From Nonomuraea rhodomycinica (GTDB taxonomy: Bacteria > Actinomycetota > Actinomycetes > Streptosporangiales > Streptosporangiaceae), in assembly GCF_013363995.1 (NCBI RefSeq), contig NZ_JABWGO010000018.1, positions 1 to 64,000 of the forward strand: a stretch of 64,000 bases of DNA, in the 5' to 3' direction. This document shows, in pieces, positions 4,083 through 12,347 of this stretch. Position 1 is the stretch's first letter. Each line of letters starts with the position of its first letter. A program made the translations under genes and the position numbers. The notes beneath the pieces were generated by a model. That model saw only the letters and a program-made list of their open reading frames with translations. It was not told the DNA's origin and ran no database searches.

Positions 4083-5018
4083 ATGAGCATCCCTTCCGAG
4101 CCCGGAGACGGCCGGCTCGACCCGGGCCTGAGCGCGATCGTGAGCGAGCGCCGCCAGCTGATCAATCTCGCCTACCGGCTGCTGGGCTCCCTGGCCGACG
4201 CCGAGGACGTCGTGCAGGAGACCTACGCCCGCTGGTACGCCATGTCGGGGGCGCAGCGGCAGGCGATCGCGTCCCCCGGCGCCTGGCTGACCACGGTGGC
4301 CGGCCGCATCTGCCTCGACGTGCTCGGCTCGGCGCGGGCCCGCCGCGAGAGCTACGTGGGCGAGTGGCTCCCCGAGCCGCTGCCCGACCGTACGGAGTGG
4401 ATCGAGGAACGGCCGGGCGACACCACGGCCGACCCGGCCGACCGGGTCACCCTCGACGAGTCGGTCAACATGGCGTTCCTCGTCGTGCTGGAGTCGATGA
4501 CCCCGGCCGAGCGGGTGGCGTTCGTCCTGCACGACGTCTTCCGCTACTCCTTCGCCGAGGTGGCCGAGGTCGTCGGCCGCAGCCCGGCGGCCTGCCGCCA
4601 GCTCGCCTCCTCGGCCCGCCGCCGCATCCGCGACGCGCGGACCCCGGCGACGCCAGCCGCCCGGCGGGCCGGCGTCGTCAGGGACTTCAAGCAGGCATGG
4701 GAGGCCAAGGACATCGACGCCCTCATCGGCCTGCTCGACCCGGAGGCCACGGCGGTCGGCGACAGCGGCGGCCTCGTCAGCGCCGTGCTCGACCCAGTCG
4801 AGGGCGGCGAGCGGATCGCGCGCTACCTGATCGAGGTCATCGGCATGGCGCCCGACCTGGCGATCCTGGAGCGGACGGTCAACGGCCAGCCCGGTCTGGT
4901 GGCGCAGCGGGAGGGCCTCATCGAGGCGGTGTTCGCGTTCGACGTCGCCGGGGACCGGATCACCCGCATCTGGGCCGTGCGCAACCCCGAGAAGCTGCGG
5001 CCGTGGACGGCCGGCTGA
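4083..5018 (+). CDS. ECF41-family RNA polymerase sigma factor (SigJ-like), copy 2
   Basis: The 311-residue protein has sigma region 2 (about 22-85), region 4 (about 135-185) and the SnoaL-like C-terminal domain of ECF41. WLPEPL lies at 95-100, DSGG at 227-230 in place of the commoner DGGG, and NPEKL near residue 303. It is the most diverged of the three copies here and has a longer acidic linker (WIEERPGDTTADPAD). The ATG start follows an AAAGGAAAG ribosome site. It is transcribed from one half of the bidirectional ECF41-type promoter, so autoregulation together with divergent yceI is likely. Confidence 0.92.
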   Translation: MSIPSEPGDGRLDPGLSAIVSERRQLINLAYRLLGSLADAEDVVQETYARWYAMSGAQRQAIASPGAWLTTVAGRICLDVLGSARARRESYVGEWLPEPLPDRTEWIEERPGDTTADPADRVTLDESVNMAFLVVLESMTPAERVAFVLHDVFRYSFAEVAEVVGRSPAACRQLASSARRRIRDARTPATPAARRAGVVRDFKQAWEAKDIDALIGLLDPEATAVGDSGGLVSAVLDPVEGGERIARYLIEVIGMAPDLAILERTVNGQPGLVAQREGLIEAVFAFDVAGDRITRIWAVRNPEKLRPWTAG

Positions 5019-5287: not shown

Positions 5288-6214
5288 ATGAACGAGCGCA
5301 GCGAGCCGACGGCGGACACATCGGAGCCGCTCGCCGGCGACCGCCGCACGGACGCCGCCACCGAGGCGTTCGTCACCCATCGCAACCTGCTGTTCACCGT
5401 CGCCTACGAGCTGCTCGGCTCGGCCGCCGACGCCGAGGACGTCCTGCAGGAGACCTGGCTGAAGTGGGCGGGCGTCGAGCTCGGCACCGTGCAGGACCAG
5501 CGCGCGTACCTGGTCCGGATCACCACGCGCCAGGCGCTGGGCCGGCTGCGCACGCTCGGCCGGCGCAAGGAGTCCTACGTCGGCCCCTGGCTGCCCGAGC
5601 CGCTGCTGACCGCGCCCGACGTGGCCGAGGACGTCGAGCTGGCCGACAGCGTGTCGATGGCGATGCTGCTGGTGATGGAGACCCTCCAGCCGACCGAGCG
5701 GGCGGTGTTCGTGCTGCGCGAGGTGTTCGACCTGTCCTACGACGAGATCGCCGAGGCCGTCGGCAAGAGCCCGGCCGCGGTCCGCCAGATCGCCCACCGG
5801 GCACGCTCGCACGTCGCCGCCCGCCGGCCACGGGGGCTCGTCTCCCCGGACGAGACCCGCGACGCCCTGGAGGCGTTCCGGCGGGCGGTGGAGACCGGCG
5901 ACCTGCAGCGGCTGCTCGACATCCTCGCGCCGGACGTCGTGCTCCTGACCGACGGCGGCGGGGTCGTGCGGGCCGCGCTGGCCCCGGTCGTGGGGGCCGG
6001 CACGGTGGCCGACCTGATGGGCCGGATCAACGCCGTGGCGTCGCTGCACCCGGCGCAGGTCAACGGCCACCCGGCGCTGATCGTCCGGGTCGGCGGCGAG
6101 GTCGACACCGTCATGGCGGTCCGCGTCGAGGAGGGCCTCATCACCGGGCTGTACGCGGTGCGCAACCCCGCGAAGCTGTCGCGGGTCGAGCAGGAGATCG
6201 CCCTGAGCCGCTGA
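5288..6214 (+). CDS. ECF41-family RNA polymerase sigma factor (SigJ-like), copy 3
   Basis: The 308-residue ECF41 sigma factor has WLPEPL at 101-106, a DGGG motif in the SnoaL-like domain, and NPAKL near the end where copies 1 and 2 have NPEKL. The glutamate-to-alanine change lies in a motif important for control in this family. Regions 2 and 4 are nearly identical in wording to copy 1 (for example LLFTVAYELLGSAADAEDVL), so the two arose by duplication. The ATG at 5288 has GGAG 7 nt upstream. It carries a perfect ECF41 promoter. Confidence 0.92.
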   Translation: MNERSEPTADTSEPLAGDRRTDAATEAFVTHRNLLFTVAYELLGSAADAEDVLQETWLKWAGVELGTVQDQRAYLVRITTRQALGRLRTLGRRKESYVGPWLPEPLLTAPDVAEDVELADSVSMAMLLVMETLQPTERAVFVLREVFDLSYDEIAEAVGKSPAAVRQIAHRARSHVAARRPRGLVSPDETRDALEAFRRAVETGDLQRLLDILAPDVVLLTDGGGVVRAALAPVVGAGTVADLMGRINAVASLHPAQVNGHPALIVRVGGEVDTVMAVRVEEGLITGLYAVRNPAKLSRVEQEIALSR

Positions 6215-7381: not shown

Positions 7382-8026
7382 TCACTCCCGCGCGAGCGGG
7401 CAGTGCGGCGGATCCTTCCGCGCGGGGTGCGCGCCGCGCAGGAAGGCCGCGGTCGACATGGCGTACGCGGAGCAGACGAGCCCGTCCAGCCGCGTCGCCC
7501 CGCCGTCGCCGAAGCGCCGGGTGGGCACGCCCATGGCGTTCAGGCCGTGTTCCAGGTCCACGCTGGAGAACGCGACCACCGTGTCACCGTGCCGGTCGAC
7601 CCAGCCGAACACCTCCCGCACCAGCGCGCGGGCCAGGGACCCGAGCCCCGTCGCCACGGCGCCGGACCAGGGGCGGTCGGTGGCCAGGCGGCTGGCCTCC
7701 CACACGGCCGGATCCCGGGGCGCCGGGACGCCCCGTAACGCCTCGGGGAAGACGTCACGGAGCATGTACGGGCCGTCGGTGCGCAGCAACCGGCAGCAGC
7801 CCGTCACCTTCCGGCCGGCCTCCGCGTAACTGATCACGTAGACCGGGTCGCAGTCGTCGAACCGGTCGCGTTCCCTGCCGTCGCGGCTGTCGACGTCCCA
7901 GCGCAGCCGTTCGTGGAACACCGCGTGACGCAGCCGGAACATGCCGTCGAGCAGCCACGGCGGCAGCTCCCCCGCCCGGCCGACCACGATCCGTCGCGCG
8001 CACCCGTCCTCTGGCGAACCGTCCAC
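7382..8026 (-). CDS. LuxI-family acyl-homoserine-lactone synthase
   Basis: The protein has every hallmark of an autoinducer synthase. Numbering from the ATG two codons upstream (8032), the ten residues invariant in LuxI enzymes are R35, F39, W45, E54, D56, D59, R81, F95, E112 and R115. They sit in RLRHAVFHERLRW, RERDRFDD, TGCCRLLRT, LRDVFPEAL and WEASRLATD. LuxI enzymes make N-acyl-homoserine lactones from S-adenosylmethionine and acyl-ACP or acyl-CoA. Length (about 214) is normal. I prefer the GTG at 8026 because GGAGG lies 6 nt upstream, whereas that site abuts the ATG at 8032. No LuxR-type receptor with an autoinducer domain is encoded in the window, and such genes are rare in actinomycetes. 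Confidence 0.92.
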   Translation of the reverse strand: MDGSPEDGCARRIVVGRAGELPPWLLDGMFRLRHAVFHERLRWDVDSRDGRERDRFDDCDPVYVISYAEAGRKVTGCCRLLRTDGPYMLRDVFPEALRGVPAPRDPAVWEASRLATDRPWSGAVATGLGSLARALVREVFGWVDRHGDTVVAFSSVDLEHGLNAMGVPTRRFGDGGATRLDGLVCSAYAMSTAAFLRGAHPARKDPPHCPLARE

Positions 8027-8119
8027 GAGCATCCTCCGCGTCCGAGCCGGCCCCTCAGCCGATCACCTGTCGCCTGTTGTTCGCCGGACCAAGAGCGTTG
8101 GACGACGCGGACCGCCGCG

Positions 8120-8445
8120 TCATCGCGCGCTCGTCCGGGCGCCACGCAGGAACAGGGCGCTGGTGAGGACGCCGAGGAGCACGATGGCGGCGTTCACCCC
8201 GATCGCGACCTTCAGACCGCCGAGGATGGCCGAGGCTCCGGTGCCGGCCATGGCGGCGGTGACGACGGCGCTCATGATCGGCGTGCCCATCGTGATGCCG
8301 ACCTGCTGGGTCATGGTCGCGAGGCCGGCGACCACCATGAGCCACATCCACGAGGGGTCGGCGCCGAGGCCGAGCAGGGCCGCGGCGAACACGGTCTGCA
8401 GGACGCCGCCCACGATCAGCGTGCCCCATACCGCCGAGCCGGGCT
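8120..8445 (-). pseudogene. MFS transporter remnant (C-terminal third)
   Basis: About 105 residues of clear membrane protein (AVWGTLIVGGVLQTVF, WMWLMVVAGLATMTQQVGIT, VAIGVNAAIVLLGVLTSALF) match the last helices of a DHA2-type drug:H+ antiporter. Upstream the frame dissolves into proline/arginine-rich non-coding translation and there is no start, so about three quarters of the gene are missing. It lies directly upstream of the luxI-type gene on the same strand and may once have shared its operon. Confidence 0.65.
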
Positions 8446-8586
8446 CGCCGTCGGAGGCGGCACTGCGGCTCCTGGGCAGCGCGACGGTTCCGGCGGCCCG
8501 GAACACGACGCCTCCGGACGCGGCGGCGTCACCGTGCCGCCGCGTCACCGCCCCGGCGGCACGGTGACGCCGGGGCGGCAGGGCGC

Positions 8587-11124
8587 TCAGGCCGTCGCCT
8601 GTCTCGTGGTGCCCACCGTGCGGTTCTTGTCGTCGGTGATGACCAGCCGGACGGTGTAGGTGCCCGGTGCCGCGTAGGTGTGCGCGGCGATCCGGTCCGT
8701 GGACGTGCCGCCGTCGCCGAAGTCCCAGGAGTACGCGACGACGGCGCCGTCCGAGTCGATCGAGTCGGACGCGTCGAACTCGCACTGCAGCTCCACGCAG
8801 GTGTAGGAGATGATCGCCCGGTACTCGGCGCCGTCGCCCGCCGCCCGGATGTCGACCTGTGTCGTCACCGTCGTCGCCGCGCCCTGGTCGTCGACCAACG
8901 TCACTTTGACGGTGTAGGAGCCGGCGCCCGCGTAGGTGTGCACCGCGTTCCGCGCCTCGGTGTCGGTGATCGTCGTTCCGTCACCCAGGTCCCACTCGTA
9001 GCGCACGATCTCCCCGTCGGGGTCCGACGACTGGGCCTCCAGTCCGCACCACCGCGTCGCGTCTTCGCAGCTGGCCACGATCCTGCCGGTGGGCGCCGCG
9101 TCGGTGGTGTCGACGGTGAGGCTCTTCGTGGCCGTCGAGGACAGCCCGCCGTCGTCCACGACCTTGAGCGTGACCGGGTGCGTACCCGCGGCGAAACGGT
9201 GGGAGACCCGCACCCCCGCGCCCGCGGCCCCGTCACCGAAGTCCCACTCGTACGTCGCTATGGCCGAGTCGGGGTCGGTGGCGAAGGACGCGTCGAAGGT
9301 GCAGGTCAGCGTGCTGTTGACGCAGGCGGTGCTGAACGAGGCGGTCGGGGGGACGCCGAAGTCGGCCTCCTGCTGGGTGGAGCTGGAGAGGTTCTTCTCG
9401 TTGGTCACGACGAGTCCGACGATGTACCTCCCGCTGGTGCCGTAGGTGTGCGAGGCCGTCGCCCCGGACGCGCTCGCGCCGTCGCCGAAGCTCCAGGAGT
9501 AGCCGGTGACGTTCCCGCCGCCGCCTCCCGTGGACGTCGAGGCGTCGAACGTGCACGCCTTGGCGGGCTTGTCGCAGGCGACGGTGAAGCGCGCGACGGG
9601 ACTGTCCGGGCCCTGGGGGGCCACCTCGTCCGAGACGCCGGGGTCCGGCCCCGCGCCCACCGCGTTGACCGCGACGACGAACAGCCGGTACGTCCGGCCG
9701 TTCTCCAGCCCCGTCACCGTGGCCGTCGTGGCCTCGCCGCCGACCTCGACGGGGTCACCGGACGGCTCGGGGGTCACCCGGTACGCGGTGATCGCGGCGC
9801 CCCCGTCGGCCGGGGCCTTCCACGTGACGGCGACCTGCCCGTCGCCCGCGGTCGCCCGGACGTCCAGCGGCGCCCCGGGCGCCTGCGGCGCGGCGAAGTA
9901 GCCGTAGACGTCGGCCCAGACGGTGACGGCGGAGCTTCCGGCGTTCCTGATCGTGATCCCGCCGTCCGCGCCGACCTTCACCGGCACGTACTGCGCGTAG
10001 GGGTCGGTGGGCAGGTAGTCGACCGATCCCCCGCCCGGTGGGCTGCTCTGGTCGGACGGGTGGACGCGCAGGCTGCCGGAGCCGGTGCTCTTGGCCGTGA
10101 AGTTGATCCCGACCGCGGTGACCCCCGTGTCGGGCACCCCGCCTTCGCCGAGTGGTGCGAGGGTGGCCGTGCCGTTGGCCGGGATGGTGATCGCCGAGGC
10201 GATCCGTGCGGGAGCGACGGGCACGGCCGCCGAGCCGGCGGCGGCCGAGGCCGGCTTGCCGAAGTATCCCGACACGTCGGCGTAGACGTCCACCGCCGCG
10301 GTGCCGACGTTCGTGAGCGCGATCTTGCCGTCGGCGCCGAGCGTGCCGAAGACCATGTTCGACAGGAACTGGTTCGCCCGGTAGTCCAGGACGGTGTCCA
10401 CCGGCGCCGCCGACCCCGACGGGTACGCTCGGATCTTCCCCGCGGCGGTGCCCTTCGCGACCAGGGCGAACGCCACGGCCGAGACGCCGGAGGCGGGTAT
10501 CCCGCCCAGCCCCAGCGGCGAGAGCGTGGCGGTGCCGTTCGCGGGGATGCTCACCTTGGAGGCCACCCGGGCCGTGTTCAGCGGCACGTACGTGGATCCC
10601 GCCGAGCCGCCCGCCGCGGCCAGGGTGTAGCCGTGGACGTCGGCGTAGACCTTGGCGGCGACCTGGCCGGTGTTGGCCACCTTGACCTGCCCGTCCGCCC
10701 CGACCTTCACGAGCATCAGCTCATGGTTGTACACGTTGGCCTGGTAGGTCGCCCCGGTCACCCCGGGCTGCGAGGCGCCGGACGGGAAGACGACCAGGCC
10801 GCCCGCTCCGTCCGTTCCCTTGACCGCGAAGTTGATCGCCGCGCTCGCGACGCCCGCGGTCGGCACGTTGGGAGCTCCGGCGATCTTCACGGTGACGGTG
10901 GTCCTGGCCGCGATCGTCACGCCGTCCATGACCCGCGCCTTCGCCGGGAAGTACTGCCCCGGGCCGGGCTGAAGCCCCGCCGCGGCCAGGCCCGGGCCCG
11001 TCGGGGCTGAGTCCGCCACGCCCGGCGCCGCGGCCCGGACGAGGCAGAGCGACACCAGGAGCGAGAGCAGGAGGGTGAGGAGCGCGGCGGCACCCGGGCG
11101 CGCCGCGCGCCCGCCGGCCGTCAT
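8587..11124 (-). CDS. Secreted modular protein: ADVxGYF repeats, FN3 and four PKD domains
   Basis: The 845-residue product begins with a signal peptide (ALLTLLLSLLVSLCLVRAAA). Three tandem modules of about 120 residues follow, each with IPANGTATL-type strands and ending in YADVHGY, YADVSGYF or WADVYGYF, a repeat common in actinobacterial exoproteins. Then comes one fibronectin type III domain (about 425-510) and four PKD domains to the C-terminus (YSWSFGDG, YEWDFGDG, YEWDLGDG, YSWDFGDG). Each PKD opens with a cysteine pair, suggesting one disulfide each. There is no enzyme domain and no anchor, so an adhesin, scaffold or glycan-binding role is inferred. The ATG overlaps the upstream stop as ATGA, so the two secreted proteins are translationally coupled. 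Confidence 0.85.
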   Translation of the reverse strand: MTAGGRAARPGAAALLTLLLSLLVSLCLVRAAAPGVADSAPTGPGLAAAGLQPGPGQYFPAKARVMDGVTIAARTTVTVKIAGAPNVPTAGVASAAINFAVKGTDGAGGLVVFPSGASQPGVTGATYQANVYNHELMLVKVGADGQVKVANTGQVAAKVYADVHGYTLAAAGGSAGSTYVPLNTARVASKVSIPANGTATLSPLGLGGIPASGVSAVAFALVAKGTAAGKIRAYPSGSAAPVDTVLDYRANQFLSNMVFGTLGADGKIALTNVGTAAVDVYADVSGYFGKPASAAAGSAAVPVAPARIASAITIPANGTATLAPLGEGGVPDTGVTAVGINFTAKSTGSGSLRVHPSDQSSPPGGGSVDYLPTDPYAQYVPVKVGADGGITIRNAGSSAVTVWADVYGYFAAPQAPGAPLDVRATAGDGQVAVTWKAPADGGAAITAYRVTPEPSGDPVEVGGEATTATVTGLENGRTYRLFVVAVNAVGAGPDPGVSDEVAPQGPDSPVARFTVACDKPAKACTFDASTSTGGGGGNVTGYSWSFGDGASASGATASHTYGTSGRYIVGLVVTNEKNLSSSTQQEADFGVPPTASFSTACVNSTLTCTFDASFATDPDSAIATYEWDFGDGAAGAGVRVSHRFAAGTHPVTLKVVDDGGLSSTATKSLTVDTTDAAPTGRIVASCEDATRWCGLEAQSSDPDGEIVRYEWDLGDGTTITDTEARNAVHTYAGAGSYTVKVTLVDDQGAATTVTTQVDIRAAGDGAEYRAIISYTCVELQCEFDASDSIDSDGAVVAYSWDFGDGGTSTDRIAAHTYAAPGTYTVRLVITDDKNRTVGTTRQATA

Positions 11125-12347
11125 TGCCCGTTCCACGGCGTGGTGGTGGTGAACATGTAGACCTCCTGGGCGTAGGGCGGCCAGGTGTTGTTTCCTCCCA
11201 TGCAGTAGCCGATGAGCTCCGGATTTCCGTGGACGGCGAAGTCGTACTCCATCGACACGTTCGACGACCAGCCGCTCGTGGCGCCCAGCATGAGGCCCGC
11301 CACATTGGCCGCCGCGGTGTACTTCCTGTTCTCGCCCCTGGTCTTCTTGAGCCCCGAGTTGTGCTTGAAATAGCAGGCGACGTGGCTCATGCAGCTCTGG
11401 CTCTCACATCCGTTGACCCACGTCGAATAGCCGTACAGCGTGCCCGTCCAGCGGGTCGCGACGCGCTTCGTGTAGGCGACGGGAAAGGTCGTGCCGATCC
11501 ATTCCAGCCGGTCCTCGTAGTCCATTCCGGCTTCCATGTAGCGGGCCGCCGGCTTGTTCAGGCCGGGGTCGAGGGTGTACGGCACCTCGTATCCCACGTC
11601 GTTGCCGATGTGCTTGGAGCCGCCCATCTTCCACCGGCCCTCTTCGAACTCCACCCCGACCTCGACCTCGGTGTCCGCCCGCCTGCCGTAGGTGAACTTC
11701 ACTTTGGTGTTCCGCGCGACCTCGATCCGGGCGACCGTGGTCGGGACGTTGCTGTAGCGGGCGAGCACCACCGACTTCATCGACACCTTCTCGGCCGGAC
11801 CCGCCGCGCCCGCGGCCTGGGACGCGCGCGCGGAGGCGAGGAGTTCGGCGGCACGGCTTCCGGCGGGAGGCGTGAAGGGGCGTTGATCGGCTTTCAGCGT
11901 CACGACGTCCCGGGCGGCCGACGTGTGGGAAGGCGCGATCCACTGCCCGCCGGTCTCCCGCCGGCGCGAGAAGAACTGCACGTCGAACTTCCCGGCGCGG
12001 CTGACCAGCGCCATGTAGTTGCTCCATCCGTCATTTCCGGACGCGGCGGTCTTTCCCGCGTTCAGCGGCATCGACAGTTCGAAGCGGCCGTCCGGGTTCG
12101 CCTTCGCGTGGGCGACGGAATCGTTGTGCTCGCTCTCCTCGGTCACGTCGAACACATAGACGTCCGCTCCCCCGGCGGGCGCCCCGGTCGCGTCCAGCGC
12201 CTTGCCGGTGAGGAACACCCCGCTGTCCGCCGACGCGCCTGCCGCGGGGATCTGGGTCGCCGTCGCCAGCAGCACGAAAGCGAGCACCGCCCGCATCAAG
12301 GTGCACGCCGGACGGCCGGGGCTCGGGCGGCGTTCGGTGAGGGCCAA
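11121..12347 (-). CDS. Secreted protein of unknown function with carboxypeptidase-regulatory-like domain
   Basis: The 408-residue product has a signal peptide (MRAVLAFVLLATATQIPAAG) and then a beta-sandwich of the carboxypeptidase-regulatory type (TGKALDATGAPAGGADVYVF, with GRFELSMPL). The rest is not recognised. It is rich in aromatic strands (ARYSNVPTTVARIEV, KVKFTYGRRADTEVEV) and has C-ESQ-C, then C and a final C that may form two disulfides near the C-terminus. The start is a TTG with GGAGG 6 nt upstream. It is first in an operon with the PKD-repeat protein, so the two may form an extracellular complex. Confidence 0.75.
   Translation of the reverse strand: MALTERRPSPGRPACTLMRAVLAFVLLATATQIPAAGASADSGVFLTGKALDATGAPAGGADVYVFDVTEESEHNDSVAHAKANPDGRFELSMPLNAGKTAASGNDGWSNYMALVSRAGKFDVQFFSRRRETGGQWIAPSHTSAARDVVTLKADQRPFTPPAGSRAAELLASARASQAAGAAGPAEKVSMKSVVLARYSNVPTTVARIEVARNTKVKFTYGRRADTEVEVGVEFEEGRWKMGGSKHIGNDVGYEVPYTLDPGLNKPAARYMEAGMDYEDRLEWIGTTFPVAYTKRVATRWTGTLYGYSTWVNGCESQSCMSHVACYFKHNSGLKKTRGENRKYTAAANVAGLMLGATSGWSSNVSMEYDFAVHGNPELIGYCMGGNNTWPPYAQEVYMFTTTTPWNGQ

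Follow-up and report, generated by a model that had tools for sequence, protein, structure and literature searches.

A stretch of 64,000 nucleotides from the soil actinomycete Nonomuraea rhodomycinica (contig NZ_JABWGO010000018.1, positions 1 to 64,000; "the window" denotes the whole of it) carries a luxI-type gene on its minus strand. The best explanation of the evidence, held with moderate confidence, is that this gene encodes a genuine LuxI-family synthase of acyl-homoserine lactones (AHLs) that is solitary, has a promoter-like element of its own, lacks a LuxR-type receptor, and has been retained in a limited set of actinomycetes. It is the single gene matching the autoinducer synthase profile PF00765 in its genome (a 90-contig assembly, 99.94% complete).

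Identification of the LuxI-type synthase

Membership of the window gene in the LuxI family is supported by its profile match, residues, predicted fold, and phylogenetic placement. The window protein matched PF00765 (Autoind_synth) with an E value of 1.4e-27 and 96.9 bits, far above the gathering score of 24, whereas PF13444, a general acetyltransferase model, reached 23.5 bits, barely above its cut-off of 22.4. The best NCBIfam models were those of TraI-type synthases, with scores below the strict cut-offs of these models, and the closest solved protein was LasI (E = 9.5e-23). The predicted structure has the LuxI fold and resembles LasI; in a ranking of structures by Z score against this prediction, nine LuxI-family structures stood above every other GNAT, and only EsaI ranked lower. 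The ten residues that we take to be the LuxI invariants, a list drawn from an earlier sequence-only reading of the window and from general knowledge, are all present in the right order (R35, F39, W45, E54, D56, D59, R81, F95, E112, and R115 in the numbering of the 216-residue frame). The same ten columns are identical in 15/15 intact actinobacterial copies; among the proteobacterial LuxI references, 33/36 carry all ten and 3/36 carry nine.

The minus-strand frame is open and intact from 7382 to 8032, encoding 216 amino acids when counted from the ATG at 8032. We take a GTG at 8026 as the probable true start (7382 to 8026, 214 amino acids), because a GGAGG read from the sequence as the probable ribosome-binding site (8033 to 8037, minus strand) lies six bases before the GTG but directly against the ATG, and because a start codon is missing where the ATG would lie in five related loci (L037, L038, L041, L042, and L043). 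The sequence-only reading, which named no strand, had taken 7382 to 8032 as the gene; the frame stands, and the start probably moves to the GTG. Its description of a complete LuxI-type synthase with ten family residues, an intact frame, and normal host codon bias agrees with these results: the guanine-plus-cytosine (GC) contents of the three codon positions are 0.75, 0.55, and 0.93, and the third-position values of the other 14 intact copies range from 0.73 to 0.97.

Distribution and phylogeny

PF00765 matches above the cut-off were found in 12 of 54 Nonomuraea genomes and in 16 of 341 genomes of the family Streptosporangiaceae, distributed over five genera. A 17th carrier, G035, scored slightly below the cut-off, and an order-level search of four more genomes yielded no further carrier. 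In a class sample, 3/394 genomes passed, namely, the window's genome and two with PF13444-type proteins (24.7 and 27.4 bits). A phylum sample searched with an alignment as the query gave matches in 4/396 genomes, of which the window's own scored 371 bits and the remaining three scored 22 to 27 bits. Within the samples searched, the rarity of LuxI among actinomycetes that the sequence-only reading had proposed was therefore borne out. Relatives elsewhere may have been missed, because the peptide-pattern scan of genome contigs reaches close relatives only and the class and phylum searches covered samples. The named relatives of the window LuxI comprise six Nonomuraea species and three Labrys genomes (50 to 51% identity over 92 residues); in the phylum of Labrys, 56/299 genomes have LuxI matches. 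No DNA match to the luxI gene of L042 was found on plasmids. At the protein level, 817 plasmid records and 5 phage records matched, all below 60% identity. A LuxI relative at 48% identity was seen on an IMG/VR viral contig (L174:3001-3279).

An unrooted tree of 51 proteins placed the 15 intact actinobacterial copies on one side of a branch and 36 proteobacterial LuxIs on the other (support 100/96). The proteobacterial rows were 41 loci (from a search of the phylum of Labrys, named plasmids, and Labrys itself) minus five near-duplicates. Because the 15 copies form one side of this branch, the actinobacterial LuxI group does not fall within any of the proteobacterial lineages sampled. One copy, L044, is an outlier at 45% identity, and the branch support for the other 14 was 100/100. 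When three PF13444 proteins were added, they were placed beside L044 with weak support (82/23), and holding the 15 copies together in their presence cost 0.19 log-likelihood units and was not rejected (approximately unbiased test, P = 0.385); L044 may or may not belong with the other 14.

A conserved promoter-like element upstream of luxI

The stretch upstream of the window gene is common to the two nearest luxI loci (8027 to 8106, minus strand), with blastn homology stopping at 8106 against L030 and at 8110 against L040. It contains an exact match to a conserved pattern, TCC-N15-RCGAACAA (8077 to 8102, minus strand). This pattern or a near variant at fixed spacing occurs 41 to 59 bases before the start in 13/15 intact loci; the site is lacking in L044, and L029 was excluded from the count. 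When the 13 loci were aligned on CGAA, the tetranucleotide was present in 13/13 and TCC stood at the same spacing in 12/13. The element is a putative luxI promoter. Between unrelated contexts, blastn homology starts between 85 bases before luxI and its first codons and ends near the end of the gene. In L041 to L043, which come from three other genera, the homology (89 to 92% identity) extends from approximately 70 to 80 bases upstream to approximately 20 to 40 bases past the aligned frame and no further. The element was also considered as the mark of a genome-wide regulon. Across 17 genomes, there were 152 exact matches compared to 164 for the reversed pattern, so the element is not enriched genome-wide; the matches vary by genome, with 9 compared to 2 in G313.

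Selection on the luxI copies

The ratio of nonsynonymous to synonymous substitution rates (dN/dS, omega) was estimated pairwise by the Nei-Gojobori method, and nine pairs were compared to 200 neutral simulations with assumed mutation settings. The median over 105 pairs was 0.39, and the maximum was 0.94. For eight of the nine pairs tested, omega was 0.27 to 0.59, and at most 5 of the 200 simulations gave values as low. Because these pairs lie well below the neutral simulations, the luxI group is under purifying selection overall; constraint is not detectable on the window's own recent branch, as discussed below.

Absence of a LuxR-type receptor

The sequence-only reading had found no autoinducer-binding LuxR in the 64 kb. 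This absence extends to the whole genome, where no PF03472 autoinducer-binding domain exceeded the cut-off of 23 bits (best score, 15.6), and to all luxI carriers (0/17 above the cut-off). These searches cover PF03472-type receptors, and receptors of another kind would escape them. Among 14 controls for the model, Escherichia coli was above the cut-off, and the domain was found in 3/3 Labrys genomes, where by coordinates it adjoins luxI. Weak PF03472 matches in 94-residue frames of four genomes were all below the cut-off, and the frames in L002 and L062 look noncoding. Within this scope and that of the 90-contig assembly, the window gene is a solo, receptor-less LuxI, not half of a canonical LuxI-LuxR pair.

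Gene neighborhood

By shared neighbor families (gene calls and protein comparison), the 17 carriers fall into 13 contexts. TetR and DoxX genes are common to the window, L030, and L040; L037 is syntenic with L038 and L031 with L032, and ten loci stand alone. Locus genes were called by codon usage and not taken from annotation, and the luxI genes missed by the caller in L041 to L043 were recovered by tblastn. A conserved partner gene of luxI was sought and rejected, since the carriers are spread over so many contexts, and the neighbors that the sequence-only reading had taken as a hint of a community or surface function are not conserved. What that reading called a decayed exporter, upstream of luxI (8120 to 8548), does resemble annotated major facilitator superfamily (MFS) transporters in two records (43.6%, covering 70% of the fragment), although the fragment itself matches no Pfam model.

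TetR-DoxX pairs at 80 to 85% identity occur in nine further Nonomuraea genomes, of which eight have no luxI and one, G049, has it at another place; the match to the pair in G052 was only partial. A clean empty site for luxI was not seen among these genomes. Because the sequence after the TetR gene differs between them, we claim no insertion mechanism. At one locus, L043, part of an IS5-family transposase abuts the upstream edge, and 135 bases of it recur (87%) as a direct repeat that starts in the last bases of luxI, so that a repeat of an IS5-type end stands on both sides of the gene (L043:9193-9327 and 10200-10334). The repeat documents insertion sequence traffic in L043 and does not establish a general mechanism.

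Three other features of the surroundings were observed. A polysaccharide-degrading enzyme is encoded immediately beside luxI in 5/13 contexts (L029, L031, L033, L036, and L037), corresponding to 5/26 immediate and 0/25 third-rank neighbors (Fisher's P = 0.051); the pattern was noticed post hoc and is not used as evidence. The window has three genes for extracytoplasmic function (ECF)-type sigma factors within 6 kb (428 to 1324, 4083 to 5018, and 5288 to 6214), two with weak SnoaL/DUF4440-like C-terminal matches. Positions 8587 to 11136 encode an 849-residue protein with PKD and fibronectin III domains.

Interpretation and alternative explanations

If the gene functions as its family membership suggests, the enzyme would couple an acyl thioester (acyl-acyl carrier protein or acyl-coenzyme A) to S-adenosylmethionine and release an AHL together with methylthioadenosine. 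The AHL would leave the hypha and act on neighboring AHL-sensing bacteria or, alternatively, would be read by the producer through a receptor class new to science. More broadly, the carriers may represent a receptor-less Gram-positive LuxI lineage that selection keeps as a one-gene unit of promoter and synthase and that reappears at new chromosomal places, its signal serving others solely or an AHL receptor class not yet known; we regard this proposal as evenly balanced between right and wrong.

Several observations weigh against the best explanation given at the outset. The role is predicted from the gene itself; its sequence does not reveal which acyl substrate is used, so the product may differ from a classical AHL. 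For the myxobacterial solo synthase AgpI, no AHL could be detected when its native host was grown in pure culture (PMC7862692). Broken copies are present in two of the 17 carriers, N. jiangxiensis (L039) and N. roseoviolacea (L040). Between the window and its sister L030, omega is 0.85, and 63 and 77 of the 200 simulations were as low, which makes the pair indistinguishable from neutral drift. The gene may accordingly be a relic that an ancestor acquired and that, though still intact, is drifting to loss after selection has gone, which we consider doubtful but plausible. The sister pair gives 0.70 over the shorter called frames, whereas TetR, next to luxI in these two genomes, gives 0.20; the broken copy in L040 is that of the third member of the window-L030 group, and presence in the genus is patchy. 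However, with only 35 nucleotide differences, the sister comparison is a weak test, and among its other neighbor genes, scored by the same method, DoxX reaches 0.53 and YceI 1.00 (the rest, 0.29 to 0.65). Comparison of the window copy with L034 and L042, which are more distant, gives 0.59 and 0.35, and the ten invariant residues, the ribosome-binding site, and the promoter-like element are all retained.

Selection in eight of nine pairs despite the missing LuxR-type receptor, together with the conserved promoter-like element, would also fit a producer that senses its own AHL through a receptor of another type, such as a TetR-type or membrane receptor. Actinomycetes sense gamma-butyrolactones by TetR-type receptors, and in the window and two relatives, the gene next to luxI encodes a TetR protein. 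However, none of the genes flanking luxI is conserved; TetR is the immediate neighbor in 1/13 contexts (three genomes), genomes lacking luxI also have TetR-DoxX pairs of this kind, and the C-terminal domain of the TetR neighbor is the general TetR_C_33. We consider such self-signaling rather unlikely. It is quite improbable that the enzyme is a LuxI by descent only, having shifted to a different acyl donor or acceptor and now making another acyl amide: the branch below the 14 close copies is long (0.59 changes per column), and the GNAT fold is common to LuxI and the FeeM-type N-acyl amino acid synthases, but the full set of ten residues is kept in every intact copy, and all other GNATs fall behind the nine LuxI-family structures. 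Contamination of the assembly with proteobacterial DNA can be practically dismissed, given that the GC content of the gene stretch equals that of the window, that the contig is 101,864 bases long, and that matches occur in 16 further genomes of the family, two of them as broken copies. A solitary LuxI-family AHL synthase whose product may act on other species, or may be read by a new receptor, would best accommodate these observations.

Comparison with known systems

AHL signaling is textbook Gram-negative biology, and solo LuxI enzymes (AgpI) and AHLs from Actinomycetota have been reported before. New here is that a true LuxI group, a receptor missing in 17/17 carriers, and a lone gene that has its own element and stands at varying places come together. 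Several carriers are named, cultured species, so two questions become addressable with ordinary strains: whether Gram-positive bacteria make AHLs by LuxI and what use a synthase has without a LuxR receptor. We found no paper on an autoinducer synthase in Nonomuraea in the open-licence literature; the portion of the Nonomuraea and homoserine lactone literature considered includes work on gamma-butyrolactone in conjugation. In the passages cited here, a 2012 survey listed one PF00765 hit among all Actinobacteria (PMC3466318), and a 2024 study reported AHLs in six Streptomyces and, by hidden Markov model (HMM), LuxI homologues in nearly all of 2,336 species (PMC10883386). Four Streptomyces proteins in the same passages, similar to LuxI by BLAST (E values up to 7e-26, at least 35% identity), may be further true LuxIs.

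The best-supported AHL gene of Actinomycetota is rhdI. According to the cited sections of a 2026 paper, AHLs of Rhodococcus and Pseudonocardia were lost upon rhdI disruption, and rhdI and other published "luxI" genes of the phylum are, like the window gene, solitary and without a LuxR carrying an autoinducer-binding domain (PMC13136126). The neighbors given there for rhdI are iscS, mnmA, and fixB, whereas those of the window gene are TetR and the MFS fragment. In three genomes, the rhdI gene order surrounds a PF13444 acetyltransferase near etfB, etfA, iscS, and mnmA (L068:5264-6046, L069:5601-6440, and L070:5604-6401; neighbors Pfam-confirmed in L069 and read from translation starts in L068 and L070), which scores 108.6 to 114 bits with PF13444 and 21.7 to 27 bits with PF00765 and carries 7/10 LuxI invariant residues. 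Gene order and length, as opposed to the sequence of rhdI itself, suggest that rhdI belongs to this neighboring family, and HMM searches may label such proteins luxI on account of their borderline PF00765 scores. The AHL result, as given in those sections, stands on that paper's own data.

The window gene shares its LuxI type with the myxobacterial solo synthases AgpI and VitI, and AgpI likewise has no AHL receptor in its genome; both enzymes produced AHLs when expressed in E. coli (PMC7862692). Unlike AgpI and VitI, the genes described here, known from sequence, comprise 15 intact copies in five Actinomycetota genera with most tested pairs under purifying selection. Canonical luxI-luxR pairs (Labrys, Bradyrhizobium, and Variovorax) have the same synthase family, but there a LuxR-type regulator adjoins luxI. 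With LasI and the LuxI family at large, the window protein has in common the profile, the ten invariant residues, the predicted fold, and the length; it differs in standing apart from the 36 proteobacterial LuxIs, in having no LuxR-type receptor, and in its changing neighbors.
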